From the NCBI GenBank assembly GCA_031292625.1, contig JARLGU010000053.1, forward strand, positions 1 to 64,000: 64,000 bases of DNA. The letters run 5' to 3'. The position numbers and the translations under genes were made by a program. The first letter of the stretch is position 1. Every line of letters begins with the position of its first letter. A model generated the notes under the pieces. It did no database searches. It saw only the letters and a list, made by a program, of their open reading frames with translations, and was not told the DNA's origin. This DNA is from Capsulimonadaceae bacterium. Its GTDB lineage: Bacteria > Armatimonadota > Armatimonadia > Armatimonadales > Capsulimonadaceae. Shown one piece after another: positions 4,341 through 43,209 of this stretch.

Positions 4341-4373
4341 CGGGGTGCAGGTTTCCTGCACCCCGTTTTCTTT
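4341..4373 (+). terminator. intrinsic terminator after the LuxR-type gene
   Basis: An 11-bp perfect stem (CGGGGTGCAGG / CCTGCACCCCG) with a 3-nt loop at 4341-4365 is followed by TTTTCTTT. It ends the plus-strand transcript. The convergent beta-mannosidase gene ends at 4382. Confidence 0.92.
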
Positions 4374-4381
4374 CGTGTCCC

Positions 4382-7679: not shown

Positions 7680-7979
7680 AATCGGCCAGAGAGTGGAGTA
7701 TTATTCATGATTAAATCGGATGACTGAATTCCGCGCCTCAAATCGCCGCAACGCAACGGTATAATAGGGGCACGGCGTGCAATCTTACGGTTCGAGGGAA
7801 CATCTTGGTTTACGACGGCAAGCAGACGGGTAAATTCTGTAAGACCATGAGTAAGCTTGTCCGGTAAATTGTTTGTTTTCAACCGATGCATTTGGAACTG
7901 AAACGGCTTTAGAAGTCGTACTTACGATAGGATAGTTTCGACGCAACCCATCAAGCAGCCGTCGACAAGGATTGAATAA
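7680..7979 (+). other. intergenic region with a candidate -10 box
   Basis: A gene-free 300-bp stretch between rdgB and the DUF948-like gene. A perfect TATAAT lies at 7760-7765, but no convincing -35 hexamer is found at 16-18 bp. A transcript from here would give a leader of about 210 nt. No hairpin with a T-run was found. Confidence 0.35.
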
Positions 7980-8426
7980 ATGACGCTCAGCGCGGCGGCG
8001 ACGGTGTCGCTGTACATCGTTCTCGTTTTTGTCGTAATATTTGCCCTGCTGACCGTCGCCCTCTTGGCGATCATCGCCTTCAGCCTGCGAACGATTCAGG
8101 AAAAGCTCGGCGAAGGTCTGGTGCAAGTTAAACCGGTGCTCGACAAAACAACGGACACCTTGGACACGGTTCAGCGGGTAACCAACCGCATCGGCGAAAA
8201 GGCTGACACAATTCTAGAGCGCGGCGAAGAGCTCACAAACAATGTTTCGCGCAGGGTCGAAGAAACTGCGGCGGTCGTCGAGAAGACCGTTTCAACGCCT
8301 TTGATCAAGTTTTCGAGCGTTGTCGCCGGCGTCGCGGAAGGCATTTCGTCTTTGAACCGTCACTTTGGCGATCCGCACTCGAACGCTTCCACGGAAAAGG
8401 GGACTAACTCGAATGGCCGAAAATAA
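7980..8426 (+). CDS. DUF948-like membrane-anchored protein
   Basis: A 148-residue protein with one N-terminal transmembrane helix (about residues 9-34) and a helical, probably coiled-coil, cytoplasmic region of the DUF948 type. The tail, rich in Asn, Ser and Thr, looks disordered. It overlaps the next, YtxH-like, gene by 14 bp, so they are almost certainly cotranscribed. DUF948 and YtxH proteins are commonly paired and are linked to general stress in Firmicutes; the molecular role is unknown. The start matches the membrane helix, but no strong SD precedes it. Confidence 0.8.
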   Translation: MTLSAAATVSLYIVLVFVVIFALLTVALLAIIAFSLRTIQEKLGEGLVQVKPVLDKTTDTLDTVQRVTNRIGEKADTILERGEELTNNVSRRVEETAAVVEKTVSTPLIKFSSVVAGVAEGISSLNRHFGDPHSNASTEKGTNSNGRK

Positions 8427-8886
8427 TGACAACAGCGGCGGCGCATTTCTGGTTGGCGTGCTTGTAGGAGGGGCGGTCGGCGCTCTTGCAGCACTTCTGC
8501 TAGCGCCCCAAAAGGGTGATGAAACGCGGGCGTATATCGCGGAAAAATCCGTCGACTACGCGTCCGTCGTTAAGAACAAATCGACGGAAGTCGCTGATGC
8601 CGTATTGCAAAATGCAACGCAAATCAGCGAAAAGGCGCTCGATACGGTCGATCAGCTTAAATCCAAGACTACGGATGTGGCGTCGACGGTCGCCGATCGT
8701 GCGGGAGAAGCGGTCAGCAGCGTGAAGGAAACGACGGAAACTGTGCTCACAAAAGGCAAAGCTCTCGTCGAAGCCACCGCAGCTGCCGTACAAGACGCCA
8801 TCGCTGATGGCCGTGAAGCGGCCCAGAAGGTGGAAAACCGCCTTAGAGCGGAGGTCGCGGAATCCCCAAGCGAGCCGGGAGCGTAA
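8413..8886 (+). CDS. YtxH-like protein
   Basis: A 157-residue protein with a glycine-rich N-terminal membrane helix (about residues 10-34, ending in the LLLAPQKG motif typical of YtxH). A long amphipathic Ala/Val/Thr-rich helix follows that resembles apolipoprotein or LEA-type repeats. Start 8413 is used because the YtxH domain begins there; it overlaps the preceding DUF948-like gene by 14 bp. A KGG stress protein follows 50 bp downstream, so the three may form a stress-related cluster. Function is inferred from family association only. Confidence 0.82.
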   Translation: MAENNDNSGGAFLVGVLVGGAVGALAALLLAPQKGDETRAYIAEKSVDYASVVKNKSTEVADAVLQNATQISEKALDTVDQLKSKTTDVASTVADRAGEAVSSVKETTETVLTKGKALVEATAAAVQDAIADGREAAQKVENRLRAEVAESPSEPGA

Positions 8887-8938
8887 TATCCGTAAGGGTC
8901 TGCGCCGCTGGCTCTGTTCTTGATAGGAGGATTGTATA

Positions 8939-9301
8939 ATGGCAAAACCTGGACCTGAGCCAGGCTCCGAGGGTGCGAAGAGGATCGCGGAGGCTCATCG
9001 CGGCTCCCATGATCATGACCAGCAAGGTGGCTTTGCCGCCAAACCGTCCCTGGCTCGCGAAGCGGGCCGCAAGGGCGGAGAAACGGTAAAAAGCCGCTAC
9101 GGCCCCGTATTCTACCAGAGTATCGGCAAGAAGGGCGGAGAAACGGTCAAGCGCGAGCGCGGCCCAGAATTTTACGCCGAGATCGGCCGTAAAGGCGGAG
9201 AAATGCGCGGTATCCGCGCAGCCGAACGTCGCGGTGCGGAAGCCAGCAAAGAGCCGGCTGCGCCCCGCAAACGTGGACGGCCCGCCAAAAACCCAAAATA
9301 A
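8939..9301 (+). CDS. KGG-motif (YciG-like) stress protein with AT-hook-like tail
   Basis: A 120-residue hydrophilic basic protein with three copies of a KGG repeat (GRKGGETVK, GKKGGETVK, GRKGGEMRG) spaced exactly 20 residues (60 bp) apart. KGG motifs occur in small general-stress proteins such as YciG. The C-terminus has KRGRPAKNPK, an AT-hook-like minor-groove-binding motif, so DNA binding is possible. AGGAGG lies 8 nt before the ATG. A strong terminator follows directly. The internal DNA repeats at 9071, 9131 and 9191 could recombine and change repeat number. Confidence 0.82.
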   Translation: MAKPGPEPGSEGAKRIAEAHRGSHDHDQQGGFAAKPSLAREAGRKGGETVKSRYGPVFYQSIGKKGGETVKRERGPEFYAEIGRKGGEMRGIRAAERRGAEASKEPAAPRKRGRPAKNPK

Positions 9302-9316
9302 CCCGTCGCAAATCAG

Positions 9317-9353
9317 AGAGCCCTGACATCCGTGTCAGAGCTCTTTTTCTTTT
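9317..9353 (+). terminator. intrinsic terminator after the KGG gene
   Basis: AGAGC and CTGACA pair with TGTCAG and GCTCT around a TCCG loop, with one mismatch. TTTTTCTTTTC follows. Confidence 0.9.
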
Positions 9354-9645
9354 CCCGCGTCATCGCCCCCCTTAAGATCCGCATCATTCCAAAGACTCTC
9401 GCGAGGGCAATTGCCCGCCGCCAGCGCTCAACGATCTCGCAACCAAACAGCCCCGGGGGTAAATGCAGCCCACGCCCGTCGGCCGGGAATCCTCCCGCTT
9501 CGGAAACGGCCTTTCCTCGAACATTACCCTCGAAGCGGAATGGAAGCGCGGAACCGGATGCGGACGCGCGACGCGGTTTCTGAACGGATCATCCCCTGGT
9601 TGCGCTGGAGACCTTTGTCCATCGCAACCGCGGCGCGATTTCAAG

Positions 9646-9651
9646 TATAAT
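9646..9651 (+). promoter_or_regulatory. -10 box directly before kdsD (leaderless candidate)
   Basis: A perfect TATAAT ends 6 nt before the GTG start of kdsD at 9658. No SD lies between them, and transcription would begin at or next to the GTG. No -35 hexamer is found at normal spacing (TTGTCC at 9615 is too far). The 290 bp between the KGG terminator and this box hold no convincing gene. Confidence 0.5.
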
Positions 9652-9657
9652 AGCCAA

Positions 9658-10653
9658 GTGAAAGATACCAATCAATCCGTCAAAGAAGTGCGCCGCGTTC
9701 TCGAGGAAGAGGCCGACGCCATTCGCGCGACCGCGGCACGCCTGCACCCAGATGTCATCGAAGCGACCGTCGAACTGCTCCTCGCCTGTCCGGGACGCGT
9801 TGTTGTCACCGGGATGGGCAAGTCCGGCGCAGTGGGACGAAAGTTCGCGTCGACCTTGTCGAGCACCGGAACGCCCGCGCTGTTCCTGCATCCGGCCGAA
9901 GGCGTTCACGGCGACCTCGGAATGGTCACGGAGCACGATGTCGTCATCGCCTTCTCGTACAGCGGCGAAACCGATGAGCTGCTCGCCGTCCTGCCGGCAA
10001 TCGACCGCCTGGGCGTCCCGATAATCGCGGTCACGGGCCGCCCCGAATCGACGCTTGGCAAGGCAGGGCGAGTCGTGCTCGATGTCGCGGTCGACCACGA
10101 AGCCTGCCCGTTGCATCTTGCGCCGACCACATCCACCACCCTCATGCTCGCGGTCAGCGATGCCATCGCAATCGCGGTCATGGGAGCCAGACGATTCACC
10201 ACCGACCAGTATGCAGCCAGACACCCGGCGGGCTCGCTCGGACGGCGTCTTCTGCTTCGGGTCGTCGATGTCATGCGCACAGGCGACGCTGTTGCGATCG
10301 TCCCAATGGACACGCTCCTGCGGGACACGCTCTTTGCAATCACCCGGGCGCACGCGGGAGCCGCGATCGTCGTTGGAACCGACGGCAAGGTCGCGGGCCT
10401 GGTGACGGATGGCGATGTCCGGCGGCGGCTGCTCGAAGGCGTTGACTGCCTTGCCCAACCCGTTTCAGAGACAATGAACGTCCATCCAGGTCTCGTTCCC
10501 GACAACTTGCTGGCCGTCGAAGGGCTCGATCTCCTTGGCGAATTTCACCCGATCCCAGGTGCGAGAGCCGGCGAAGCGCCCGTCGTCGATGCCGATGGCC
10601 GGCCCGTGGGCATGCTAATGCTCAAGGATCTCGTGAAAGCGGGCATCGTATGA
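9658..10653 (+). CDS. kdsD: arabinose-5-phosphate isomerase (KdsD/KpsF)
   Basis: A 331-residue enzyme that isomerises ribulose 5-phosphate to arabinose 5-phosphate, the first step of Kdo synthesis for LPS. It has a SIS domain at residues 1-195 with GMGKSG, LFLHPAEGVHGDLGM and SYSGETDE, then the HPAGSLGRRLL linker. Two CBS domains fill the C-terminus. GTG at 9658 is chosen because upstream codons are unlike the family and a TATAAT sits directly before it. It overlaps kdsC by 4 bp (ATGA), giving a two-gene Kdo operon. Confidence 0.93.
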   Translation: MKDTNQSVKEVRRVLEEEADAIRATAARLHPDVIEATVELLLACPGRVVVTGMGKSGAVGRKFASTLSSTGTPALFLHPAEGVHGDLGMVTEHDVVIAFSYSGETDELLAVLPAIDRLGVPIIAVTGRPESTLGKAGRVVLDVAVDHEACPLHLAPTTSTTLMLAVSDAIAIAVMGARRFTTDQYAARHPAGSLGRRLLLRVVDVMRTGDAVAIVPMDTLLRDTLFAITRAHAGAAIVVGTDGKVAGLVTDGDVRRRLLEGVDCLAQPVSETMNVHPGLVPDNLLAVEGLDLLGEFHPIPGARAGEAPVVDADGRPVGMLMLKDLVKAGIV

Positions 10654-11171
10654 AGGATGTCCGCCTGCTGATCATGGATGTGGACGGAACCCTTACTGAC
10701 GGCGGGATATACATCGGTCCGGCCGGGGAAGAACACAAGCGCTTCCACATCGCCGATGGCCTTGGAATCCGCATGGCCCATACGGCGGGCCTCCGGACCG
10801 CCGTCATAACCGGAATCGTCTCGGAGCCCGTTCGCGTCCGTATGGAAAGCCTTGGGTCGTCCGATATCCTTCTCGGCATCGGCAACAAGAAAAATGCCGT
10901 CCAGTCGCTTAAAGAAAAATACGGGCTGCTCGACGAGCAAGTCGCATTCATTGGCGACGACTTAAACGATCTACCGGCATTCGAGGCAGTCGGGGTCCGC
11001 ATCGCGGTCGCCAACGCCGTGCCGCAACTCAAGCAGCGCGCCCACTACATTACGACCACGCCTGGAGGAGCCGGCGCGGTCCGCGAGGCAATCGAGGTCA
11101 TTCTCACGGCCCAGGACCGGCTCGCGCGCGCGGTCGATGGCTACGTGGAGGAAATTACCCGCGCCCGCTAG
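10650..11171 (+). CDS. kdsC: 3-deoxy-manno-octulosonate-8-phosphatase (KdsC)
   Basis: A 173-residue HAD phosphatase that converts Kdo-8-phosphate to Kdo. The nucleophile motif is DVDGTLTDG with Asp10 and Asp12; GIGNKK and the metal-binding GDDLND are also present. The length is that of cap-less tetrameric KdsC proteins. It is translationally coupled to kdsD by an ATGA overlap. Together the two genes are the main evidence in this window for LPS inner core. kdsA and kdsB must lie elsewhere. Confidence 0.93.
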   Translation: MKDVRLLIMDVDGTLTDGGIYIGPAGEEHKRFHIADGLGIRMAHTAGLRTAVITGIVSEPVRVRMESLGSSDILLGIGNKKNAVQSLKEKYGLLDEQVAFIGDDLNDLPAFEAVGVRIAVANAVPQLKQRAHYITTTPGGAGAVREAIEVILTAQDRLARAVDGYVEEITRAR

Positions 11172-11263
11172 GCGCTACGCGTACACGGGCAACGCCTGGT
11201 CACGATCGTATAACGCCGGACTGCGTCGCGCTTCGGCGCATCTTTTCCCTTCAGGTTACAAAT

Positions 11264-12508
11264 ATGAGCCGCCTCGAAGATCCCGCCTCAAAACACGAAC
11301 GCGAATTGATGACCTGCGTCCATTGCGGCCTCTGTCTGAACGCCTGCCCCACCTACTTGGTCACCGGCAGCGAGGCCGACAGTCCACGTGGCCGGATCGT
11401 CCTGATGGCGGCAATGCATCGCGGAGAGCTCGGCGACGGCGACATCGGCGCAAGGCTGCACCTCGATCGCTGCCTGGGATGCCGCGCTTGCGAAGTCGCC
11501 TGTCCTTCCGGAGTTCCCTACGGCAGCCTTGTCGAGGTTGCCCGCGCGTCGCTCAACAAGATGCGCCCAGTCGCCCAGAGAGCCGCACGTTTCGCTTTAC
11601 TCGAATCGCTGACGGACCCAGCCCGCATGCGTCTTAGTCTGACCGTTTCCCGCTTGGCTGGCGGAATGCCTTCGCCGTTTGCGCGGCTCCTCACCGGCGA
11701 ACCAGGCGTCGTCGCCAACGCGCCGTTGCCGGCTGAATCCAAAACTCCCGCCTTGCCCGCCGTCATCCCGGCCAGAGGGCCCCGGCGCGCACGCGTCGGA
11801 ATGCTTGTCGGCTGCGTCATGCGCGTGCTTTACGGCGACGTGAATGAAGACACCGCTGTAATCCTGGCTGCCAACGGATGCGAAGTCGTGGTGAATCAAC
11901 GTCAAGGCTGCTGCGGCGCGCTGCACCTGCACAACGGATTTGACGATAGAGGTCTCGTGCTCGCCCGGAAGATGATCGACGCGTTCACGCCGTTCGATGG
12001 CCTCGATGCCATCGTCGTCAACTCCGCGGGATGCGGATCGACGATGAAGGAATACGGACATCTCCTTGCGGAAGATGATGAGTACGCGGAACGGGCGCGC
12101 CGCTTTTCGGAAAAGGTGAAGGACGTCAGCGAGTACTTGGACGAACTAGGCTGGAATGCGCCAATGCGCGAGATCAAACAAACCGTAACCTACCACGACG
12201 CCTGCCATCTCGGTCATGCCCAGCGGATCACCGAAGCCCCGCGGCGGCTGATCCAAGCCATCCCCGGCCTAACCCTCGTCCCGCTGACCGAAACAGACGT
12301 TTGTTGCGGCAGCGCGGGAATCTACAACCTCACTGAACCCACGATGTCGCTTAAACTGAGAGACCGCAAGGTCGCGAATATTCTCGCGACCGGCGCGCGA
12401 ACGGTGGTCACATCCAACCCCGGATGCATGGCGTGGATTAACTCAGGCGTCGACAACATCGGCGTCATCCACCCAGCGACATTGTTGCGGCAAGCATTGC
12501 AGGACTGA
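11264..12508 (+). CDS. glcF: glycolate oxidase iron-sulfur subunit GlcF-like
   Basis: A 414-residue (Fe-S) protein of the GlcF/heterodisulfide-reductase-D type. Two [4Fe-4S] ferredoxin motifs lie at residues 18-28 and about 69-80. Two CCG domains follow (GCCGALHLHNG and DVCCGSAGIY). It would pass electrons from a FAD glycolate or lactate dehydrogenase subunit (GlcD/GlcE) to the quinone pool at the inner membrane. No glcD or glcE is adjacent, so the partner is unlinked and the exact substrate uncertain. It ends 9 bp from the convergent STAS gene. Confidence 0.85.
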   Translation: MSRLEDPASKHERELMTCVHCGLCLNACPTYLVTGSEADSPRGRIVLMAAMHRGELGDGDIGARLHLDRCLGCRACEVACPSGVPYGSLVEVARASLNKMRPVAQRAARFALLESLTDPARMRLSLTVSRLAGGMPSPFARLLTGEPGVVANAPLPAESKTPALPAVIPARGPRRARVGMLVGCVMRVLYGDVNEDTAVILAANGCEVVVNQRQGCCGALHLHNGFDDRGLVLARKMIDAFTPFDGLDAIVVNSAGCGSTMKEYGHLLAEDDEYAERARRFSEKVKDVSEYLDELGWNAPMREIKQTVTYHDACHLGHAQRITEAPRRLIQAIPGLTLVPLTETDVCCGSAGIYNLTEPTMSLKLRDRKVANILATGARTVVTSNPGCMAWINSGVDNIGVIHPATLLRQALQD

Positions 12509-31781: not shown

Positions 31782-32954
31782 TCACATATAGCGAATGTGC
31801 ACCTCTTTGAGGTGCTTGTCTTCGAGCAGGCGGGCGATCTTCTTGATGACGTTGCGTCTGATGTCCAGCTCGACGGGCAAGAGCGGGTTCTGGTGCGCCG
31901 CGTTGATGCTCGTCCCAACCACGAAATCGATAATGTCGCTTTGCAGCAACATAGCCAGCAGGCGCGTCGCCCCGTTGAACCGCGTACCGCGCTCCCCAGC
32001 CTCGAGCATCTGCGCCGTTTTCCCAAGGGTCAGACAACCTTCCGTCACAAGGTCGACGCCTGGCATCTCCGATGTCGTCGGAATCTCGTCGTCGATGATG
32101 CTCAGATCCATCGTGACCGGCAGACCAAGCTCACGCGCGACGATGTTCGCGGTCGTGCCGCCGCAGATAACCGTTTTGCCGTCACGCGATTTGGCCAGCT
32201 GAGCGTACTGCGCATCGCCCTCTTTATCGTACGGCGGCCCCGACAGAACTAGAAGCCGCCTGGGCTTTCGAATGTAAATCGCCGCGCACGTGATATCATC
32301 GCCCGCCTTCGCGCCATCGATTTTAAGCGCCTGCTTCGCGACAAGCTCGCACAACGTGCTCGCCGAAATCTCCGGGATCTTACGGATGCACTCAAGCGCA
32401 TAAGCGCGGACATTCTCGGGCTCCCAGCTCAGTGGATACTGTTCCGTACCCATTCCAGCCTGACTGACGCCGTCCGAGAATATGAGGATCCGGTCGCCCA
32501 GCGCGGCGTCGAACTCCGAATAGGCCAGGGATCGCCCACCCCAACGCTCCTGACGAACCTCGACCTGCTCCACGGAAACGGGCTTGCCGTCGCGTATCAG
32601 CACGAACGCCGGATTGCCATGCTCGATAATCCGGGTGACGCCGCCAAGGTTCGTGTCCACGATTGTAAACGTCGAGTAGCTGATCTTGCGACGGGGACAC
32701 AGAGGCAGCGCGTCCATGACGATCTCCGCCGCGCGCCGTGTGGCGATGTTGCTTGCGACAAACTCAAGCGCCATCTGGGCGGTGAGCGACGCCAACGTAC
32801 AGGCCTCGACGCCAGAACCGAGCCCATCCGCAAGCACGCAGATCGCGCGGCGCCCGCTGTTCGAGCGGCGGGAGACGAAGACATCGCCCGCGACATGCTG
32901 GTTCGCTTTCCGATACTGGCAGTGCTCCAGTTCGATGTAAGCCTGGGCGCTCAC
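31782..32954 (-). CDS. SpoIIE/PP2C-type serine phosphatase with C-terminal extension
   Basis: A 390-residue protein. Residues 1-230 form a SpoIIE-type PP2C phosphatase; metal ligands are expected at the Asp of VLADGLGSG (about 43), in IFSDGVSQ and in GDDIT. Residues 235-390 are an extra domain (LLVLSGPPYDKEGDAQYAQL, ICGGTTANIVARELG) often found with this phosphatase in hydrogenase-linked loci. GTG overlaps the stop of the HydS-like gene (GTGA), so the two are coupled. It probably passes a redox signal by dephosphorylating a protein such as a STAS antagonist; the target is inferred. Confidence 0.85.
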   Translation of the reverse strand: MSAQAYIELEHCQYRKANQHVAGDVFVSRRSNSGRRAICVLADGLGSGVEACTLASLTAQMALEFVASNIATRRAAEIVMDALPLCPRRKISYSTFTIVDTNLGGVTRIIEHGNPAFVLIRDGKPVSVEQVEVRQERWGGRSLAYSEFDAALGDRILIFSDGVSQAGMGTEQYPLSWEPENVRAYALECIRKIPEISASTLCELVAKQALKIDGAKAGDDITCAAIYIRKPRRLLVLSGPPYDKEGDAQYAQLAKSRDGKTVICGGTTANIVARELGLPVTMDLSIIDDEIPTTSEMPGVDLVTEGCLTLGKTAQMLEAGERGTRFNGATRLLAMLLQSDIIDFVVGTSINAAHQNPLLPVELDIRRNVIKKIARLLEDKHLKEVHIRYM

Positions 32955-34699
32955 GACCCGTCGTCCTTAGTGCGTTCGTAGTGAGTCGGCGAAAAACCAT
33001 CAATGATCGAGTCCAGGATAATCTCGGACTCCGCGGAGCTCTTTCCGAGCCGGAACGCAATGTCCTGGACGTTGTGCAGCATGTTTTGTATCACGAGCTG
33101 CGCCTTCTCGACAATCTGCTCGCGCCGCAGTTCCGTGTTGGTGACATCGATCATGATGGCGCCCACGACGCGATGCGGTTCGAGCGTGAATATGGTGACG
33201 CTTAATACGGTCTCGTCGATGCGAATATACTTGCGGATGATGTCCTCGCCCGTCCGCAAGACCTGCTCGAAAAGATCGATGAACGGTACAACGGCCGAGA
33301 CGCGGACACCCGCCAGATCCGGCGCCGCTTCGGCAAGCTGGACAATGTCCTCGCCGCCGAGCCGCACGAACTCGCCGTTGCACTCGATGATGTCGAGAGC
33401 CTCGCCGACGAGAACCGTCGCATACGGCACCGTGCGCAGGATTGCGTTCGCCTTCTTGTGAGCGAGGTCGCGCATATAGGACACGCACATGCTGATCTCA
33501 GCCTTGCCGCTCAAGATCGCCGCCGCAAGTTCCCGGCACGAATGGTAACCGCATCCGCCGCAGTTGAGTTCGTCGCTCTCGGAATGCTTGCCGACCGATC
33601 GAAGCGTCGCCGCGATGGCATCGTCATCGAACGATGGCGTCTCAACCGCCGCGATAGAGGGGCTATCGGCAACCTCAATTTCAGGCGAACGCGGGTACTC
33701 GGCATCGGCAAAATGCGCAAAATCCAGGACGCTGAGACGCGACAGGACCGCTGAACGCGCGCTGGCCTTCGGGCCGTTGACGCAGCCGCCCTCGCAAGCG
33801 AGCAGTTCGAGAAAGACGCTCCGGTCGAGATCGCGAAGATCCGAGCCGCGCAGGGCCTTGTCGATTTCAACGATGCCCGACAGGCTCATAAAGCGGACGT
33901 CCTGGGAGCGGCTGTGGACCCTGGTCGCGTCGAGCATGCCGCCTTCGATAGGGTAGAGCGCGCCCTCCGCCGCCTGGCACGGTTCGAAAACGTCGTTGCT
34001 GGAGCCCACGCACTCGCGCGGGTCTATCCCGATGTCCGCGAACAATCCGCGAAGGTCCTCGAAAGTCAACGCGGCGGAGAGCAGCTCCGGATGCGCCTCG
34101 GCTTCGAGCTTTTTGGCGATGCAGGGTCCGAAAAACACGATCTTCGCGTCCTGCCCATAGTGCTTCTTGAGCAGGCGGCAGTGCGAGAGCAACGGCGAGA
34201 GGACTTGCGTGATCTGATGGGCATGCTCAGGCAGGTATTTCCCGATCAGTTCCACCGCAACCGGACAGGCCGATGAAAGGAATAAACGCCCTCGCACTGA
34301 CGCGTCGACATCCATTGCGACCCGAGCCGAGACTTCCTGCGCGCCTAACGCCGTTTCGCTGACCGCGTGGAAGCCCAGCTCCTTGATCGCGTGAATGAGC
34401 GAACCGACGAGGACGCCGGCAAACTCGCTGGCGAAAGATGGGGCGAGCGAAACGATTACGGGGGCGCGCTGCGCCAGAAGGTTGCGCAGGATGCTAACAT
34501 CGTCGCGCACGCGCTTTGCACCGGATGGACACACGCTCGCGCAATGACCGCAAACGATGCAAAGATCCGGGACAATGCTCGCCTGGTTGTTGCTGACCCG
34601 GATAGCCTTAACGGGGCACTCGCGGATGCATTTGTAGCAGTCCTGACACTGTGCCGGTTCCGAGTAAATTGGTTTGCGCGCGTCTATCTTGACGACCAC
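32951..34699 (-). CDS. HydS-like sensory [FeFe]-hydrogenase with PAS domain
   Basis: A 582-residue protein. Two [4Fe-4S] motifs lie at residues 18-28 and 47-57, and an [FeFe]-hydrogenase H-domain at about 80-320. Its four H-cluster cysteines are kept: Cys145 in SSACPV, Cys193 in GPCIAKK, and Cys302 and Cys306 in ACEGGC. The proton-relay cysteine before Cys145 is Ala144, as in group C sensory enzymes. An FeS domain (Cys380, 383, 388, 405) and a PAS domain (about 418-540) follow. A neighbouring phosphatase fits a sensory role. GTG 34699 is the first usable start; it lies inside the normal gene spacing with the [2Fe-2S] gene. Confidence 0.82.
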   Translation of the reverse strand: MVVKIDARKPIYSEPAQCQDCYKCIRECPVKAIRVSNNQASIVPDLCIVCGHCASVCPSGAKRVRDDVSILRNLLAQRAPVIVSLAPSFASEFAGVLVGSLIHAIKELGFHAVSETALGAQEVSARVAMDVDASVRGRLFLSSACPVAVELIGKYLPEHAHQITQVLSPLLSHCRLLKKHYGQDAKIVFFGPCIAKKLEAEAHPELLSAALTFEDLRGLFADIGIDPRECVGSSNDVFEPCQAAEGALYPIEGGMLDATRVHSRSQDVRFMSLSGIVEIDKALRGSDLRDLDRSVFLELLACEGGCVNGPKASARSAVLSRLSVLDFAHFADAEYPRSPEIEVADSPSIAAVETPSFDDDAIAATLRSVGKHSESDELNCGGCGYHSCRELAAAILSGKAEISMCVSYMRDLAHKKANAILRTVPYATVLVGEALDIIECNGEFVRLGGEDIVQLAEAAPDLAGVRVSAVVPFIDLFEQVLRTGEDIIRKYIRIDETVLSVTIFTLEPHRVVGAIMIDVTNTELRREQIVEKAQLVIQNMLHNVQDIAFRLGKSSAESEIILDSIIDGFSPTHYERTKDDGS

Positions 34700-34704
34700 T
34701 TTCG

Positions 34705-34953
34705 TTACTTGCGTAATTCCTTGTCCAAAATCGAAGGAATTTCGGCGGGGGACGCTTCCCGAATCAGCGTGCCGCCCACTGAGATCGTGGGGCCTTCCAT
34801 GCATCGCTCCTCGCACCGGCTCCCAACAAGTCTGACCTGAAACGTGTCGCCGTGCTCGCCGATGTACTTCTTGATCGCGGCAAGGTTCGCGCTGTTGCCT
34901 CGGGAAAAGCACGAACTGCCCATGCAAACGACAATCTCAACCGGTTCAGTCAC
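34705..34953 (-). CDS. thioredoxin-like [2Fe-2S] ferredoxin
   Basis: A protein of about 82 residues of the NuoE/thioredoxin-like ferredoxin family. The [2Fe-2S] ligands are the Cys pairs in VCMGSSC and SRCEERCMEGP. It would feed or take electrons from the adjoining HydS-like protein, with which it forms a three-gene operon ending in the phosphatase. GTG 34953 is preferred because AGGGTGG precedes it by 8 nt; GTG 34965 is the alternative and adds four residues. Confidence 0.85.
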   Translation of the reverse strand: MTEPVEIVVCMGSSCFSRGNSANLAAIKKYIGEHGDTFQVRLVGSRCEERCMEGPTISVGGTLIREASPAEIPSILDKELRK

Positions 34954-35113
34954 GAATCTGCCCACCCTGCGCGCCCATTATGGCGGCTCGCACACACCTT
35001 TATGGTAACCATGCGTTACGGCCAAAGTCAAGGAATGAGCCCGAGATCGGCCGATTGAAGGACTATACGCCACGTTTGCGCCGCTGAGGCAAATAAAGTT
35101 ACAGGGCGGATAT

Positions 35114-35195: not shown

Positions 35196-35552
35196 GTGCA
35201 AGACCTCTTACGGAAACTTAAAGCGGAGATTTTCCAGGCGCTCGCGCACCCCACGCGGATCGCGATCGTGGAAACTTTGCGCGACGGCGAATTGCCGGCA
35301 AGCCGGATCATTGAGCGGCTGAAGCTCGAACAGGCCAACGCCTCGCAACATCTGGCGGTCCTTCGCTCGAAGCACATCGTCGTCAGCCGCAAGGAAGGGA
35401 CGCAGGTCTACTACAGCTTGCGCGACGCCCGGATCATCGACGTGCTCGATATAATGCGCGCCTACTTCGAGGCGCATTTGGCGGACGCGATGTCAATGCT
35501 TCAGGAGGCTACCCTCGCCGCCGAGGAGCAAGCAATGGGAGCGAAGAAGTGA
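35196..35552 (+). CDS. ArsR-family transcriptional regulator
   Basis: A 118-residue winged-helix regulator with the typical ALAHPTRIAIVETLRDGEL helix and the recognition helix in ASQHLAVLRSKHIV. It contains no cysteine, so classical thiol-based metal sensing by ArsR is excluded; the signal is unknown. GTG start with AAGGAC upstream. It overlaps hyfB by GTGA. The palindrome over its own promoter suggests that it controls the whole hyf operon and perhaps the divergent HydS operon. Confidence 0.88.
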   Translation: MQDLLRKLKAEIFQALAHPTRIAIVETLRDGELPASRIIERLKLEQANASQHLAVLRSKHIVVSRKEGTQVYYSLRDARIIDVLDIMRAYFEAHLADAMSMLQEATLAAEEQAMGAKK

Positions 35553-37549
35553 CAATCGCTCGTGGCCTTTTCGAGAACGCCCTTCTATACTCGCTCGCGA
35601 TCTGCTGGTTGGCGTTTCCTCTCTCCGTGCTCATGAGGGGACCGAAAGCCAACGACCGCGTCCTGGGAGGATTGATCGGCGCAGGCAGCGTCATCCTGCT
35701 AGCGCTTGGAATGACCGCGCTGGCAAGCACTCCGGCAACCATCGCGCTCCCTTTTCCATTTTCGCTGGGGGACGTCCCGATCGCTTTCACGCTCGACTCT
35801 CTGTCCGGATTTTTTCTCTGCGTAATTGCCATTATCGCAGGCCTGATTTCTCCGTATCTTCGCGGCTATTGCGCGCACCTGGCTGACCGAGCCGACATGC
35901 GGATCTTCTGGACCGCCTTGCCCGCGCTCATTCTCAGCATGGCGCTGGTGGTTCTGTCGGCCAATGCACTGACGTTCCTCGTGGCCTGGGAAGTGATGTC
36001 GCTAACGTCGGCGATCCTGATCGCAACCGACCACGAGCCTAAGGCGACGCGCGGCGCGACGCTGATCTACCTCGGCGCAACGCGAATCGCAACCGCCTTC
36101 CTCGTGGGAGGCTTCCTCTGGGCGCACGCGCTCACCGGAACATGGACGTTCGCTGACTGGCACATCTCGGGCATCGCGGCCCTGGGGCCCGGCCTGCTCG
36201 TTCTCGTCGGGCTCGGGATCAAGGCGGGAAGCTGGCCGTTTCACTTATGGCTGCCAATCGCCCATCCGGCAGCTCCTGCTCCCGTGTCGGCGTTGATGAG
36301 CGGCGTCATGGTCAAGGTCGCGATCGCGGCGATGGTGCGGTTGTTCGTGATCGGTCCCGCGTTCGACCACCCGGAACTGGGCATCGTAATCCTCGCGGCG
36401 GGCGCGGTCTCGTCGGTGTGGGGGGTTCTGTTCGCGCTGATCCAGCACGATCTCAAGCGGCTTCTCGCCTATCATACGGTAGAGAACGTCGGCCTGATCC
36501 TGATGGGCATCGGCACGTGTTTGGTCGCCCGCCACGCCGGACTTTCGATCGTCGCGCAGGTTGCGCTGGCGGCGGGACTGTTCCACGTGCTCAATCACGC
36601 CGTCTTCAAATCGCTGTTGTTTCTAGGCGCGGGCGCGGTGGATGCCGGGGCTGGCACACGCAACCTCGACCTGCTCGGCGGTCTAGGCAAACGGATGAAG
36701 TGGACATACGCCTGCTTCGCAATCGGAGCCGCCGCGATCTGCGCACTGCCGCCGCTGAACGGCTTTGCGAGCGAGTGGCTGCTGTATCAGAGCTTCTTGG
36801 GCGGAGCGGTCGGCGCGCATTCACCGATCCAGCGATTTTCGTTCTTGCTTCTGATCGGCGTGCTTGCACTCGTCGGCGCACTGGCGATGGCCTGCTTCGT
36901 CAAGGCTATCGGCGTAACGTTTCTGGGGCGTCCGCGAAGCAAAGCCGCCGAGAGCGCTCGCGAGGCGGACTTTGGCATGCTCGCGGGACAAGGCGCCCTC
37001 GCCGCCCTCTGCGTATTCCTTGGCCTCGCGCCGCCCGCGGTTCTCGCTGTGCTTGACCCGGTAACGCGCGCCGCGATCCCAGGCGCTCCTCCGCTAACCG
37101 CGGCGTGGACGCTCCCAACCGGCGCAATGCTGGCGGCGCTGGCCGTCACCGCATTCGCGGGAGCGGCGTGGACATCGCGCGCCCGGCGGCAAAGGCCGGA
37201 CCGGACGTATATCACGTGGGAATGCGGCTTCGGCGCACTGAGCCCGCGTCAGCAGGTCAGCGCCACGAGTTTTGTACAGCCGATCTCAAGAATCTTCAGC
37301 GTCGTCTTCCAGTATGCCGAAAACCTGCGGATAGAAGGCGAAAGCCGGCGCCTCTTTCCGGACCGCGTAACCGCGACGTCGACAACCGAAGCGGTGCTCG
37401 AGACGCGGCTCTACGGCCCGCTCACCATGCTGTTCAAATGGCTCGGCGATCAGGTGATCAAGCTGCAGGAGGGCAATATTCACGCCTACTTGCTGACGAT
37501 GCTACTAACGCTGCTCATACTCCTGGCGATCGGAGGGTCCATCCGTTGA
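35549..37549 (+). CDS. hyfB: HyfB-like antiporter subunit of an Ehr/group-4-type complex
   Basis: A 666-residue, multi-helix membrane protein of the NuoL/MrpA/HyfB proton-antiporter family. Typical segments are FLVAWEVMSLTSAILIATDHEP, GIKAGSWPFHLWLPIAHPAAPAPVSALMSG and AYHTVENVGLILMGIG with the usual buried Lys and His residues. It would be one of two proton- or sodium-translocating subunits. GTG start overlaps arsR. The C-terminal 80 residues reach the cytoplasm, and the stop overlaps hyfC. Confidence 0.92.
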   Translation: MTIARGLFENALLYSLAICWLAFPLSVLMRGPKANDRVLGGLIGAGSVILLALGMTALASTPATIALPFPFSLGDVPIAFTLDSLSGFFLCVIAIIAGLISPYLRGYCAHLADRADMRIFWTALPALILSMALVVLSANALTFLVAWEVMSLTSAILIATDHEPKATRGATLIYLGATRIATAFLVGGFLWAHALTGTWTFADWHISGIAALGPGLLVLVGLGIKAGSWPFHLWLPIAHPAAPAPVSALMSGVMVKVAIAAMVRLFVIGPAFDHPELGIVILAAGAVSSVWGVLFALIQHDLKRLLAYHTVENVGLILMGIGTCLVARHAGLSIVAQVALAAGLFHVLNHAVFKSLLFLGAGAVDAGAGTRNLDLLGGLGKRMKWTYACFAIGAAAICALPPLNGFASEWLLYQSFLGGAVGAHSPIQRFSFLLLIGVLALVGALAMACFVKAIGVTFLGRPRSKAAESAREADFGMLAGQGALAALCVFLGLAPPAVLAVLDPVTRAAIPGAPPLTAAWTLPTGAMLAALAVTAFAGAAWTSRARRQRPDRTYITWECGFGALSPRQQVSATSFVQPISRIFSVVFQYAENLRIEGESRRLFPDRVTATSTTEAVLETRLYGPLTMLFKWLGDQVIKLQEGNIHAYLLTMLLTLLILLAIGGSIR

Positions 37550-38457
37550 TCGCAGTTTTCTGGCTATTCGTTTACCTGATTCATATAGCCGTGTTGCCGC
37601 TGCTGTTCATCGGATTGGTCCGCTGGCTAAAGGCGCGCTTGCAGGGACGGCAGGGACCGTCGCTCTACCAGCCGTTTTGGGATTTCGCCAAAATGCTCGG
37701 CAAGGGCGAAACAATCAGCGAAACCGCAACCGGCGCATTCCGCATCGCGCCGCTCGCCAGCCTTGCGTCGGTCGCGACAGTGTCCCTGATGATCCCGTGG
37801 GCAGGCGTCCCGTCCCCCATCGCGGGCGATCTGGTTCTCGCCGTGTATCTGCTGGCGGCCGGCAAGTTCTGCACGAGCCTGGCGGCGCTGGACACGGGAT
37901 CGTCATTCGGCGCAATCGGCGCGAGCCGCGAAGCCGCGATCTCGATCCAGGCTGAACCGGCGTTGCTGCTCGGCCTCGGAGCGCTCGCCGTGCACGCGCA
38001 CGACAGCCGCTTTGCTGCGTTCTTGACGCCCAGCGGCGGCGAGCATATCGTCATCCTGGCCGTGCTCGCGGGCGCCGCCGCCTGGATGTGCGCAATGGCC
38101 GAGTTGTCTCGCATGCCGATCGACGATCCGACCACGCATCTCGAGCTGACAATGGTTCACGAAGCGATGATCCTGGAAAACTCGGGGCGCAATCTGGCGC
38201 TGATCGAGTACACAGTCGCGCTGAAGACGACGCTGCTGCTCGGGCTCGTGGTCCAAATCGTTCTGCTCGCCGTTCCGCTGCGCTCGATAGCCGTTCATTA
38301 CATTGTGAGCATCTTGCTGCTTGCGGCAACGGCGGCGGGGCTGGCGATTTCCGAGACCGTGATGGTCAAACTGAGCTGGCGTCGCGTCCCGAACATGCTC
38401 TCGTATGCAATTGGGGCATCGGCGCTCGCGTGTTTGTTGGTGGCGATGAGAGGCTAG
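37546..38457 (+). CDS. hyfC: HyfC-like (NuoH-type) membrane subunit
   Basis: A 303-residue membrane subunit of the NuoH/HyfC/EchB family, which connects the soluble arm to the antiporter subunits. Diagnostic motifs are GSSFGAIGASREAAIS near residue 120 and MPIDDPTTHLELTMVHEAM near 195. The TTG start has GGAGGG 8 nt upstream and overlaps the hyfB stop (TTGA), which is why it is preferred over far upstream starts. A 345-bp insertion separates it from hyfE, the only gap in an otherwise overlapping operon. Confidence 0.92.
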   Translation: MIAVFWLFVYLIHIAVLPLLFIGLVRWLKARLQGRQGPSLYQPFWDFAKMLGKGETISETATGAFRIAPLASLASVATVSLMIPWAGVPSPIAGDLVLAVYLLAAGKFCTSLAALDTGSSFGAIGASREAAISIQAEPALLLGLGALAVHAHDSRFAAFLTPSGGEHIVILAVLAGAAAWMCAMAELSRMPIDDPTTHLELTMVHEAMILENSGRNLALIEYTVALKTTLLLGLVVQIVLLAVPLRSIAVHYIVSILLLAATAAGLAISETVMVKLSWRRVPNMLSYAIGASALACLLVAMRG

Positions 38458-38802
38458 CGCTAAGTTAAATTGGACTTGACAATATGGCTGTGTGAACCCT
38501 CACCCCAGCCCTCTCCCGCAAAGCCGGGCGAGGGAGCCGGAATTCCCTCGCACATTCCGATTGGAGAGGGTGAGGGTCTTTGCAACAGAATACTAGCGCT
38601 TAGTGCGAACCTAGGAAAATATAGCTCATTTTGAGCGCGGTTCGCTAGTGGAGAACCCCTCTTCTTTCTCCTCCCGTTTCGGGAGGAAGGGGCCTGCCGT
38701 CCTCGGCGGGAAGGTGGGTTCCGCGCGAAGCGCGCCGAGGCGAAGCCGCGTTGGTTCGCCGAAGACAAGGTAGGTTCTTGCCTGCCGAAAGCATCGTAAA
38801 TT
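38458..38802 (+). repeat. palindromic elements inside the hyf operon
   Basis: Two imperfect palindromes break the operon. The first (38497-38577) has outer arms ACCCTCACC/GGTGAGGGT and CTCTCC/GGAGAG and an inner GCGAGGG/CCCTCGC hairpin. The second (about 38650-38760) has CCTCCCG/CGGGAGG and GC-rich flanks. Both resemble the REP-like elements scattered in many genomes. A 13-nt stretch (AAGCATCGTAAAT, about 38790) matches repeat copy B. No ORF is convincing. TTGACA at 38476-38481 lacks a matching -10. Confidence 0.65.
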
Positions 38803-39438
38803 ATGGGTGAGTTGCATTTGTTCGAATCAGGCGCGGCGGTTACGGTTATCCTGGGATTGTGGATCATCGGCATTACGCGCGTGCAGACGACGCTGGCGCT
38901 TTACGGCGCGCAGTCGGCGGCCCTGGGACTGATGACGGTGCACCTGGGCGTCTTGCGGGCGGAGCCGCTCCTGGTGATTGTCGGCGTTGCGGTCGTTGCG
39001 GTGAAGGGCCTGTTTGCGCCCGTATACTTATTGATCGCCGCTAAAAGCCTGGGATGCCGGCGAGACGACGGCGTATCGATTTCGCCGCCAATCCAATTTT
39101 TCGGAGCGCTGACCGGCCTCGCGCTGATTCTGCTGCTCCATCCCCTGCGCGCCGCCCTGCCGGAAAGCGCGCTTCCTTCGGTCGGATTGCTCCTGCTAGG
39201 CATGATGGTGATGATCACGCGGCGGCTTGCGCTTAGCCAAATCGTCGGGTTCCTGATGCTCGAAAACGGAATCTTTCTGTACACGATCGGTCAGCCGCAC
39301 ACGATGCCGATGGTCGTCGAAATCGGCGTGCTGATGGATGTCCTCGCTGGCGTCATGCTCGCTGGTCTGCTGGCATTCAAGATCAACAAGACGTTCGAGC
39401 ACATCGATGTGACGGAACTCAAGGAGCTGCGCGGATGA
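38803..39438 (+). CDS. hyfE: HyfE-like (NuoK-type) membrane subunit
   Basis: A 211-residue membrane protein of the HyfE family, with about six helices and a NuoK-like second half (LLGMMVMITRRLALSQIVGFLMLENGIF). HyfE-type subunits lie between HyfC and the antiporter-like subunits and complete the ion path. No clear SD precedes the ATG. Its stop overlaps hyfF by 4 bp. Confidence 0.9.
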   Translation: MGELHLFESGAAVTVILGLWIIGITRVQTTLALYGAQSAALGLMTVHLGVLRAEPLLVIVGVAVVAVKGLFAPVYLLIAAKSLGCRRDDGVSISPPIQFFGALTGLALILLLHPLRAALPESALPSVGLLLLGMMVMITRRLALSQIVGFLMLENGIFLYTIGQPHTMPMVVEIGVLMDVLAGVMLAGLLAFKINKTFEHIDVTELKELRG

Positions 39439-40889
39439 CGCCTGTTCTGAGCCTGCTTCCCGGTCCCTTGATCATCGCCGCGCTCGCGCTCCTCGCCGTG
39501 CGCGGACGCATCCTATCGCGTCTGGCGGCGCTGGTAATGGCCGGGCAATGCGTTGCGGCCGCCATTGAATGGTTCCCAAGGCTCGGCAATCCGATGGACG
39601 CGCCGATCGAGCGCGGCTTCGGAACAGATTCTCACGGCGCGCTGTTCGTGTTGCTGACCACTCTCGTCGTCACCGCCGCATTCGTCCACGCGGTTTCGTT
39701 CTTCGACCGCGAGGCTCAGTCCGAGCACCCGCCGGTATCGCGCCAGATCGGGCAGTTTTACTTTTTCGCCCCGCTCTTCCTGATTGCCATGTATGCGGTC
39801 GTCCTGGCCGACAACCTGGGCTATATGTGGATCGGGATGGAGGCGACGACTCTGCTTTCCGCGCCGCTGGTGTACTTCCACCGCTCCGCGCGCTCGCTGG
39901 AAGCGACGTGGAAGTACGTGATCATCTGCAGCGTCGGGATCGCGTTCGGCTTCTTCGGCACGGCGGTGCTCTTTGCCGCCTCGCAACAGTCTGGCGCACT
40001 TGCGCAGGGAAGCCTTTCGCTCTCCGCGCTCACGGCGCACGCCAGCCAACTTCCGCCCGGCATGGTGCGCCTCGCTTTCGTATTCCTGCTGCTCGGTTAC
40101 GGCACAAAGGCAGGGCTATTTCCGCTGCACAACTGGCTGCCGGACGCACATAGCGAAGCGCCGGCGCCGGCATCGGCGATCCTATCCGGATCGCTGCTCA
40201 ACTGTGCCCTGGTCGCTTTGTGGCGGATAAGCGACCTTGCGCGCGCCGCGGGGCAGGATCTTGTCGTGCGCGAGACCCTGCTTCCGATGGCTGTCGCCAC
40301 GGTGATCGCGGCGGCATTGTTCCTGCTGCGCCAGAAGGACGTCAAGCGGATGCTCGCCTATTCCAGCATGGAAAACGTCGGGATCATGGCGACCGCGATC
40401 GGCCTGGGTACGTGGAACGGCTTTGCACTGCAAGCGATCAATCACAGCCTCTGCAAGGTTGCCGTCTTTCTCTTGGCCGGCAACCTCTTACAGCAATTCG
40501 GCACTAAGAATATTCATGAGCTGCGCGGTCTGCTCCGCGCACAGCCGGGCCGAACGATGCTCCTGCTGCTCGCGATTACCGCCGTCGCCGGAACGCCGCC
40601 GTTCGGCAGCTTCCTGGCGGAATGGCGTATCCTGAGCGTCGCCGCCGACGGCGGGTTGTTCTGGGTCGTCGCCGCGCTGGCAGCGTCGCTGGCGCTCGCA
40701 TTCATTGCGCTGGCGATGCAGTCGCTGGAGATGGCGCTGGGAGCGCCTCCGGAGGCCGCGGAGACATGTACGCGAACGAAGTTCGCGCTTTCCCTTGTGC
40801 TCGTCCCGGCCGTGCTATTGCTGGGTTCGCTGATTCTAGGCACGATGCTGCCCGCCAGTCTGCTCGCGCTCGTGGGAGGCCTGCGATGA
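39435..40889 (+). CDS. hyfF: HyfF-like antiporter subunit
   Basis: A 484-residue membrane protein of the NuoN/NuoM/HyfF antiporter family. Visible features are the LGYMWIGMEATTLLSAPLVYFH helix, GTKAGLFPLHNWLPDAHSEAPAPASAILSG, and KRMLAYSSMENVGIMATAIG. It is the second ion-translocating subunit and has the usual length. ATG overlaps hyfE and its stop overlaps hyfG, so all four are translated in series. Confidence 0.92.
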   Translation: MTPVLSLLPGPLIIAALALLAVRGRILSRLAALVMAGQCVAAAIEWFPRLGNPMDAPIERGFGTDSHGALFVLLTTLVVTAAFVHAVSFFDREAQSEHPPVSRQIGQFYFFAPLFLIAMYAVVLADNLGYMWIGMEATTLLSAPLVYFHRSARSLEATWKYVIICSVGIAFGFFGTAVLFAASQQSGALAQGSLSLSALTAHASQLPPGMVRLAFVFLLLGYGTKAGLFPLHNWLPDAHSEAPAPASAILSGSLLNCALVALWRISDLARAAGQDLVVRETLLPMAVATVIAAALFLLRQKDVKRMLAYSSMENVGIMATAIGLGTWNGFALQAINHSLCKVAVFLLAGNLLQQFGTKNIHELRGLLRAQPGRTMLLLLAITAVAGTPPFGSFLAEWRILSVAADGGLFWVVAALAASLALAFIALAMQSLEMALGAPPEAAETCTRTKFALSLVLVPAVLLLGSLILGTMLPASLLALVGGLR

Positions 40890-42412
40890 GCGACGAATCA
40901 ATGCCTGCGATCGAACGCAAGACGTACCCCATCGACCATCTAGCGAACAAGCTCGCGACCGGCATCGGCGCGGGACGGCGATTAGGCCTGATGACGGCGC
41001 GAAAATCCGGCGATGGCGACCCTCTCGTCCTGGTTGCGCTGCTCATCGATCTGGTCACCGGCGGCCTGCGGCTCATCGAAGCGCCGATGCGCCCGGGAGA
41101 CAACACGTACTCGTCGGTGACGGCGCGCGTCCCGCAGGCGCACTGGTTTGAGCGCTCAATTCGCGACTTCTTTGGGCTAACGCCGGCCGGACATCCCCGC
41201 CTGAAAAGCGTCTTGCTGCATGAGGCATGGCCCCAGGGCTTTTATCCCCTTGCGGCGACAAGCCCGCAGGCCCCCTTGCGCGATACTCAGGCGCGCGCGT
41301 ACGACTTTCTGCAGGTCAAGGGCGAAGGGGTCTACGAGATCCCGGTCGGCCCGATCCACGCCGGTATCATCGAACCCGGTCATTTTCGATTTAGCTGCCT
41401 GGGCGAGACCATTCAGAACTTGGAAATCCGCCTCGGCTACCAACACCGGGGAATCGAGGAGCGCCTCCAACGGACTCCGTGGCGCAGGATTCCGCCGTTC
41501 GCCGAAGCGATCAGCGGCGATACGACCGTCGGCAACGCTTTAGCGCACGCCCTGGCGATCGAACAACTCACCGGCGTCGCAGTCCCGCCCGCCGCAGCGG
41601 CATTGCGCGCGGCGGCGTTGGAAATTGAACGGATCGCTTCTCACATTGGCGACCTCGGCGGATTGGCGGGCGATATCGGCTTTCTGGGCCCTGCCGCCCT
41701 CTTCGCCCGCCAGCGAGGCCGAGCGCTTGGGCTCGGTGAACGGCTGACCGGATCGCGCTTCCAATCCGCGTTCATTCGCCCCGGCGGCGTCACGAGACCG
41801 CTTTCCGAAGAGATGCGCCGCTCCATTCTAGCGGACGTCATCGCGTTCGCGGCGGACTTCGACGAAGCGCGGCGGTTGTTGACGGACGAGCCAGGCGCTG
41901 TCGAGCGAATGGAGAACGTCGGGGTTGTTCGACCCTCGCTTGCGCGCGATTTCGGCCTCGTCGGTCCTGCGGGCCGCGCCTCGGGCCAGGGATACGACGT
42001 TCGCGCTGCCTTACGGCAACCTCCCTACGACGTGCTCGACTGGACGCCGGCGGGTTCCGAAACCGGGGATGTCCTTGCCCGCGCCATGATCCGCATCCAG
42101 GAGGTCGCCACGAGTTTCGACCTTCTTCACCAACTTTTGAGCACGCCGCTCGTCGATTTCGAAATTATGACGACGCTTCCGGACACCTTGCCCGCCAATG
42201 CGGTTGGCGCCGGTGTTGTGGAGGCGTGGCGAGGCGAACTGATCCACCTGGCAATTACGGACGCAAACGGCGGACTGCTGCGCTATGCGGTCAAGGATCC
42301 AAGCTTTAACAACTGGACGGGGCTCGCGATCGCCGCGCGCCTGGAGCTCGTCGCCGACTTCCCGCTGTGCAATAAGAGTTTCGGCCTCTCTTACAGCGGC
42401 AACGATTTGTAA
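40886..42412 (+). CDS. hyfG: HyfG-like large subunit lacking NiFe ligands
   Basis: A 508-residue fusion of a NuoC-like domain (residues 1-135) and a NuoD/HyfG-like domain. The diagnostic EGVYEIPVGPIHAGIIEPGH is present near residue 150. The N-terminal NiFe motif (RxCGxC) is replaced by AISGDTTVG near residue 208. The C-terminal DPCxxC is replaced by SFGLSYSGNDL at the very end. Only two cysteines remain, neither in a ligand position, so no NiFe centre can form. It belongs to the Ehr-like proteins related to complex I rather than hydrogenases. ATG 40886 overlaps hyfF. Confidence 0.9.
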   Translation: MSDESMPAIERKTYPIDHLANKLATGIGAGRRLGLMTARKSGDGDPLVLVALLIDLVTGGLRLIEAPMRPGDNTYSSVTARVPQAHWFERSIRDFFGLTPAGHPRLKSVLLHEAWPQGFYPLAATSPQAPLRDTQARAYDFLQVKGEGVYEIPVGPIHAGIIEPGHFRFSCLGETIQNLEIRLGYQHRGIEERLQRTPWRRIPPFAEAISGDTTVGNALAHALAIEQLTGVAVPPAAAALRAAALEIERIASHIGDLGGLAGDIGFLGPAALFARQRGRALGLGERLTGSRFQSAFIRPGGVTRPLSEEMRRSILADVIAFAADFDEARRLLTDEPGAVERMENVGVVRPSLARDFGLVGPAGRASGQGYDVRAALRQPPYDVLDWTPAGSETGDVLARAMIRIQEVATSFDLLHQLLSTPLVDFEIMTTLPDTLPANAVGAGVVEAWRGELIHLAITDANGGLLRYAVKDPSFNNWTGLAIAARLELVADFPLCNKSFGLSYSGNDL

Positions 42413-42453
42413 GACGAAATCGCGACGGTCTCATTCCGTTGGAACAGAACGAA

Positions 42454-43209
42454 ATGATACGAACACTTATCCAACTAGCGAAGGGCGGTCTTGCGACCCC
42501 GGCGGAGCTGTTTCCAGACCTGCCGGAGTACAGTCGCGGGCTGCCGATGGTTACCGATGCGCGTTGCAGCGGCTGCGGGGACTGTGCCGAGGCTTGTCCG
42601 ACATCGGCGATCCGGATCGGGGCGGCCGGAGAAGTTGCGCTCGATCGCGGACGCTGTATCGCCTGTGACGCGTGTACAGGGACATGCTCCACCGGCACGC
42701 TCGCGGCCGACCGGCGAACGAGGGTCGCGGCGCTACGGCGGGAAGATCTCGTTCTCACCAACGCGCCTAAACGCATCGCGGACACGCCGCCTCCTGCTCC
42801 TGGGCCGCTGCGGCGCTCTCTGCATATTCGGGAAGTTTCCACCGGCGACAACGCGACCGACCTCGAGATCGGCGCTTCGACAAACCCGATCTTCGACGGC
42901 GGCCGGTTCGGCATCCACGTCGTGGCATCGCCTCGGCACGCCGACGCGCTCGCGGTCTCAGGACCGGTCGCGCGAGCGATGCGAGAGCCTCTGTTGCGCT
43001 GTTACGACGCAATGGCGGACCCGCGGATCGTAATCGCGGTCGGCGCGGCGGCGATCTCCGGCGTCCCGTGGGAGGGAGGCTACGCTGACGCAAACGGCGT
43101 CGAAGCCGTCCTGCCCGCCAACGCCTTTATCCCCGGCAGCCCGCCCCACCCGTGGTACATACTGCACGGATTGCTGCTCGCAATGGGACATCCGGCGGCG
43201 CGCGGCTAA
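42454..43209 (+). CDS. hyfI: HyfI/NuoB-like subunit with ferredoxin domain, N2 ligands lost
   Basis: A 251-residue fusion of a HyfH-like ferredoxin domain and a NuoB/HyfI-like domain. Cys38, 41, 44, 48 and Cys68, 71, 74, 78 form two [4Fe-4S] motifs. In the NuoB part the four cysteines of the proximal (N2) cluster are all gone: CNGC is DNAT (residues 132-135), VGACAIS is VGAAAIS (Ala199), and IPGCPPRP is IPGSPPHP (Ser229). The fold is otherwise well kept (HADALAVSGPVARAMREPLL). The start is ATG 42454; TTG 42439 is possible. Its stop overlaps the convergent YfhO gene. Confidence 0.9.
   Translation: MIRTLIQLAKGGLATPAELFPDLPEYSRGLPMVTDARCSGCGDCAEACPTSAIRIGAAGEVALDRGRCIACDACTGTCSTGTLAADRRTRVAALRREDLVLTNAPKRIADTPPPAPGPLRRSLHIREVSTGDNATDLEIGASTNPIFDGGRFGIHVVASPRHADALAVSGPVARAMREPLLRCYDAMADPRIVIAVGAAAISGVPWEGGYADANGVEAVLPANAFIPGSPPHPWYILHGLLLAMGHPAARG

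Follow-up and report, generated by a model that had tools for sequence, protein, structure and literature searches.

A hydrogenase-related complex of Armatimonadota lacking both the NiFe site and the N2 cluster may transport ions without electron delivery near the membrane

The DNA analyzed here (the window) is a 64,000-nucleotide stretch from a Capsulimonadaceae bacterium of the phylum Armatimonadota, whose genome measures 5.8 Mb and is 96% complete. At positions 35196-43209 (+), Pfam and NCBIfam models delineate an operon with the gene order arsR-hyfB-hyfC-hyfE-hyfF-hyfG-hyfI (Table 1). Its products include homologues of HyfB, C, E, F, G and I, the composition of a six-subunit membrane complex of the group 4 hydrogenase type, and the large subunit HyfG carries no NiFe-binding cysteines. 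Both features characterize the energy-converting hydrogenase-related (Ehr) complexes. HyfG also groups with Ehr large subunits and not with NiFe hydrogenases, in agreement with an initial annotation, made from the DNA letters alone, that had proposed an Ehr-like complex at this locus. Two reports give the function of Ehr complexes as unknown (PMC12342949, PMC6349859).

Table 1. Features of the arsR-hyf operon in the window.
Feature	Position	Strand	Basis
arsR, ArsR/SmtB-type regulator without cysteines, overlaps hyfB	35196-35552	+	Pfam HTH_20/HTH_5, NCBIfam HTH_metalloreg
hyfB, NuoL/MrpA-like antiporter subunit, 666 aa	35549-37549	+	Proton_antipo_M; hydrogenase-4 subunit B model below curated cut-off
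hyfC, NuoH-like subunit, 303 aa	37546-38457	+	NADHdh; nearest solved chain FHL HycD 7z0s_D
Non-coding gap between hyfC and hyfE, with dispersed genomic repeats	38458-38802		~50 partial copies elsewhere in genome
hyfE, NuoK/MrpC-like subunit, 211 aa	38803-39438	+	hydrogenase-4 membrane subunit model, below cut-off
hyfF, NuoN/MrpD-like antiporter subunit, 484 aa	39435-40889	+	Proton_antipo_M, hydrogenase-4 subunit F models
hyfG, NuoC/D-like large subunit without NiFe ligands, 508 aa	40886-42412	+	Complex1_49kDa/30kDa
HyfG AISGDTTVG (residues 208-216), at RxCGxC place of NiFe relatives	41507-41533	+	
HyfG C-terminus NKSFGLSYSGNDL, at DPCxxC place	42371-42409	+	
hyfI, NuoB/HycG domain preceded by a fused two-cluster ferredoxin domain, 251 aa	42454-43209	+	Oxidored_q6 + Fer4
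HyfI ferredoxin cysteines C38, 41, 44, 48, 68, 71, 74, 78, intact	42565-42687	+	
HyfI D132-N-A-T135, at CxxC place of N2 site (D132 = 42847, T135 = 42856)	42847-42858	+	
HyfI A199, at third N2 cysteine place	43048-43050	+	
HyfI S229, at fourth N2 cysteine place (PGCPP to PGSPP)	43138-43140	+	

Where NiFe relatives carry their ligand motifs, HyfG has AISGDTTVG and NKSFGLSYSGNDL. Profile alignments with the solved E. coli HycE and Pyrococcus MbhL place these losses at the NiFe ligand positions, just as the initial annotation had read them, and the best fold match of HyfG is HycE (7z0s_E, TM 0.79). The only cysteines in the protein are C171 and C495. The first of these is kept in the Armatimonadota clade and in most relatives, and we considered it as a replacement ligand but rejected it, because it is equally present where the N2 cluster site of HyfI is intact. 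The combination of four NiFe cysteines with Hyp maturation that marks group 4 NiFe hydrogenases is lacking, with no HypD found in the source genome. Loss of the NiFe cysteines has itself been reported for Ehr complexes of the Candidate Phyla Radiation (CPR; PMC7304191).

HyfI has lost its N2 ligands as well. Counted from the ATG at 42454, residues D132, T135, A199 and S229 occupy the N2 ligand positions in profile alignments with the solved E. coli HycG and Pyrococcus MbhJ, whereas all eight cysteines of the ferredoxin domain remain, so that only two ferredoxin-type clusters are left, as the initial annotation had claimed. An alignment in search of shifted cysteines found none. Outside the ferredoxin domain HyfI has a single cysteine, C183 (43000), which is not conserved and was rejected as a compensating residue; thus, four ligands cannot sit elsewhere in HyfI. 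The sequence shows that the pocket above the membrane is unable to form a NiFe site or an N2-type cluster in any known way. With both centers gone and two ferredoxin-type clusters left, energy coupling must differ.

The same six genes in the same order occur in ten other genomes of Armatimonadota, in which HyfG is 44-59% identical; arsR heads the operon at seven of these loci, and HyfI lacks N2 at eight. Because this loss recurs in independent genomes, a sequencing or frame error in the window can be ruled out. The ratio dN/dS is about 0.06-0.16 or, where saturation of dS allows only a bound, near 0.1 (three congeners; CPR pairs). Aside from arsR, no conserved partner gene adjoins the operon in related loci, and no conserved redox partner gene was found beside it; three congeners have other neighbor genes in common. 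Rv0081 of M. tuberculosis, which we take to be an ArsR-type regulator, belongs to a comparable arrangement. According to a reference cited in PMC6177252, the locus Rv0081-Rv0088, which includes this regulator, is predicted to encode a formate hydrogenlyase (FHL) complex.

Ehr complexes from Nitrospira, Riflemargulisbacteria and the CPR share with the window complex the six core subunits, the absence of NiFe cysteines, and the signatures VGPxHAGxIEPGHF and NKSFxLSYxGxD. However, a typical Ehr complex keeps all four N2 cysteines, a trait that is not in the published definition, and the window complex keeps none. We compared 80 named Ehr loci, which come from many phyla; wherever HyfI could be read, the CxxC, C and C ligands are retained with few exceptions (L045 has all four cysteines). 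Nearly all recovered relatives keep these residues, so lacking N2 is not a general trait of Ehr complexes. The open-access literature searched yielded no published account of such a loss, and the available text of PMC6349859, PMC7304191 and PMC12342949 describes NiFe loss in Ehr complexes without mentioning N2.

Within the clade of the window, two Obscuribacter-like loci (L054, L055) keep four N2 cysteines and two Armatimonadota loci (L040, L041) keep three (CNAT, GTC, PGC), the latter being intermediates of N2 loss. The other rows of this clade retain no more than one N2 cysteine, which in L036 is the second. The Obscuribacterales genome that carries L055 (G295) has a second, divergent Ehr operon (L140); both have four N2 cysteines, and hyfB of L140 lies on the opposite strand. 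A tree of 14 rows was built from six concatenated subunits after the ligand columns had been taken out. In it the N2-less rows fall into two positions, and the approximately unbiased (AU) test rejects a single clade (p 2.2e-5). A search of other phyla recovered N2-less HyfI from three Chloroflexota genomes and about ten CPR genomes. In the joint tree a loss-only count gives six events, two each in the Armatimonadota clade, the Chloroflexota and the CPR, and one clade is again rejected (AU p 7e-62), and with it a single ancestral loss. The tree was computed quickly under LG+G4, contains some long rows (L170, L172) and served to test groups chosen once the data had been seen; we therefore read the count as several losses, probably six.

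In five of the six losses the first N2 cysteine has become Asp, a two-base change. The crude chance of this outcome is about 2e-7 at background Asp frequency, or 4e-4 at a generous p = 0.15. Elsewhere in the N2-less rows the second position is T, S or A, the third A, S or Q, and the fourth S, H, G, N or D, and because these remaining positions vary freely, they give no sign of a new, conserved metal site. In the CPR rows the first position is Thr, Ser or Asp, and carboxylates predominate at the third and the fourth. Among the Chloroflexota, L168, L169 and L170 have lost N2 ligands independently and L171 keeps all four cysteines; L168 and L169 have also lost one first-cluster ferredoxin cysteine, although the ferredoxin cysteines are otherwise mostly kept.

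The CPR versions are reduced further. At L105 and L173-L180 the operon order is hyfI-B-C-E-F-G and the core subunits are kept, but HyfI has no ferredoxin domain and neither the N2 nor the NiFe ligand sets are present. Neither a CxxCxxCxxxC protein nor an Fe-S gene was found within the fetched loci. A Fer4_7 match is absent from seven of the nine genomes of this main CPR group, which are drafts, compared with its presence in 14 of 14 controls; this search did not extend to other Fe-S families. Part of the ferredoxin domain persists in one further CPR genome, G764 (L172), which represents a separate loss. The L105 operon spans 4179-11419, and ATP synthase genes, recognized by eye from the sequence, lie nearby.

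Despite these recurrent losses, the residues expected to conduct ions are nearly constant. HyfB conserves E148, K225, K256, H350 and K354; of these, E148, K225, H350 and K354 are identical in N2-less, CPR and N2-keeping rows. Across the same three groups E136, K225 and K341 of HyfF are invariant, and most acidic residues of HyfC, including those of the loop between transmembrane helices 5 and 6, are the same. Family conservation and alignment to solved antiporter-like subunits identify the antiporter-channel Lys and Glu residues of complex I. H158, E163 and the EPGHFR segment of HyfG are nearly invariant, and we take this region to correspond to the beta1-beta2 coupling loop that PMC9474812 describes in FHL. 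Intact pumping parts alongside repeated loss of membrane-adjacent metal sites suggest that ion movement may be possible without the usual driving chemistry.

E. coli FHL (7z0s) and Pyrococcus Mbh (6cfw) are the nearest solved structures for HyfG, HyfI, HyfC and HyfB and have the coupling loops in common with the window complex, but both possess a NiFe site, a proximal cluster and the RxCGxC and DPCxxC motifs, all of which are missing here. Pyrococcus Mbx/MBS (6u8y), another group 4 relative, has antiporter subunits and, like the window complex, no NiFe site. MBS, however, retains a proximal cluster at its substrate site, and no such cluster can form in a known way in the window complex. Respiratory complex I shares the NuoB/CD/H/K/L/N-like core, and HyfG H158 presumably occupies the position of Nqo4 H38. 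In comparison with NuoD/NuoB-type rows (L047, L049), the N2 ligands and the quinone-site Tyr (Nqo4 Y87) are absent, and the operon has no NuoE/F/G; a separate nuo locus exists in the genome. Mrp Na+/H+ antiporters have antiporter-like subunits with conserved Lys and Glu and transport ions without redox chemistry. Unlike Mrp, whose MrpA-G set is incomplete in this operon (no MrpB/E/F/G), the window complex has a NuoB/NuoD cap and a NuoH-like subunit.

Divergent from the operon lie genes for a FeFe-hydrogenase-domain protein with an FeS domain (32951-34768, -), a SpoIIE phosphatase (31782-32954, -) and a NuoE-like 2Fe-2S protein (34705-34965, -), a cluster (31782-34965) that in our estimation resembles those of sensory FeFe hydrogenases. 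The genome encodes four FeFe-hydrogenase-domain proteins along with HydG, and therefore ferredoxin-linked low-potential chemistry is likely present. Two HydG-family genes exceed the cut-off (C27:29934-32421 and C59:7800-9212); one of them has a far lower score than the other (504 versus 921 bits) and adjoins a third, weaker match to the same model.

We consider the chances even that this Ehr-type (group 4 hydrogenase-related) ArsR-HyfBCEFGI complex is an ion transporter that runs without being powered by electrons delivered to the membrane-proximal pocket, in which no known redox center can form. The complex most likely still moves H+ or Na+, because its ion-conducting arm and coupling loops are strongly constrained; less certainly, this movement would be unpowered by electrons reaching the pocket. 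It would probably be a gated or secondary transporter whose working resembles that of an Mrp antiporter capped in the manner of complex I. The CPR cases make independence from such electrons plausible for the core machine, and minimal proton-conducting units have been made from dissected complex I antiporter modules (PMC11496545). With the ferredoxin domain of HyfI retained, transport might be gated by redox state or electrons might leave to a partner. The clusters of this domain probably act as a gate, as a docking site or as the point where electrons exit to a partner; more speculatively, reduced ferredoxin or another partner might open, close or bias transport. The cluster would once have contributed a negative or protonatable charge, which Asp at the old N2 position probably, if speculatively, now provides.

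In favor of this transporter we count operon conservation, dN/dS, recurrent N2 loss, constant channel residues, convergence on Asp, the CPR group and the absence of HypD. Several observations weigh against it. The eight ferredoxin cysteines are invariant in all 11 Armatimonadota rows, as would be expected if electrons still flow. The AlphaFold monomer models of HyfG and HyfI are of middling confidence (pLDDT 73 for one and 75 for the other), which is low at HyfI 134-152, after the ligand loop; HyfG 125-189 and 485-508 are also modeled with low confidence. Moreover, a cofactor of unrecognized kind, or a partner encoded elsewhere, may be involved. A wider proposal, which we hold tentatively and at somewhat below even chances, is that a complex I-type class has arisen about six times in which ions are moved without pocket redox chemistry, the main CPR group doing so without any redox cofactor, and the charge role of N2 has passed to a carboxylate at its former site.

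The main rival is a redox-driven pump in which ferredoxin reduces the HyfI clusters, the second cluster passes electrons directly to a soluble or small-molecule acceptor, and coupling is conformational instead of taking place in the pocket. The invariant ferredoxin cysteines, mostly kept even in N2-less Chloroflexota, and the low-potential chemistry implied by the FeFe-hydrogenase-domain proteins and HydG speak for this pump; with no conserved partner gene beside the operon, and with a main CPR group that retains the machine without a recognizable cluster, we judge it unlikely, though a serious contender. It is improbable that an Fe-S cluster or other metal is held near the N2 position by other ligands. 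Residues such as Asp, Ser and His can serve as ligands of clusters or metals, and C171 of HyfG is widely conserved; however, the second, third and fourth positions vary freely, and C171 is found equally in rows with an intact N2 site, whereas most CPR rows have V in its place.

The initial annotation had offered a conformational or non-redox ion pump or else an interaction module, and the sequence comparisons make such a pump the likelier of the two. A module that serves the adjacent FeFe-hydrogenase/NuoE/SpoIIE cluster in interaction or regulation would fit the divergent neighbors in the window, one with a hydrogenase domain, and HydG in the genome. Yet related loci have no FeFe-hydrogenase or SpoIIE neighbor at E 1e-5, save one short ferredoxin-motif match, and we regard such a role as quite improbable. 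The least credible account is a functionless, decaying relic, as the lost catalytic residues and the dispersed repeats between hyfC and hyfE might be read, for purifying selection, an intact six-gene operon and proton-path residues invariant across distant genomes are hard to reconcile with decay.

Recurrent loss, three-cysteine intermediates, convergent Cys-to-Asp replacement and the additional absence of the ferredoxin domain in the main CPR group extend the initial annotation. It has long been asked how electron transfer and proton pumping are coupled in complex I. Natural relatives that have repeatedly shed the electron-delivery site but kept the proton path and coupling loops would make it possible to test directly which parts depend on redox chemistry. 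The most stripped-down of them would be the CPR versions, in which a complex I core apparently does without any cofactor, in host genomes that mostly lack a dicluster-ferredoxin match. If our interpretation is true, the coupling apparatus of complex I would be usable without electron transfer.

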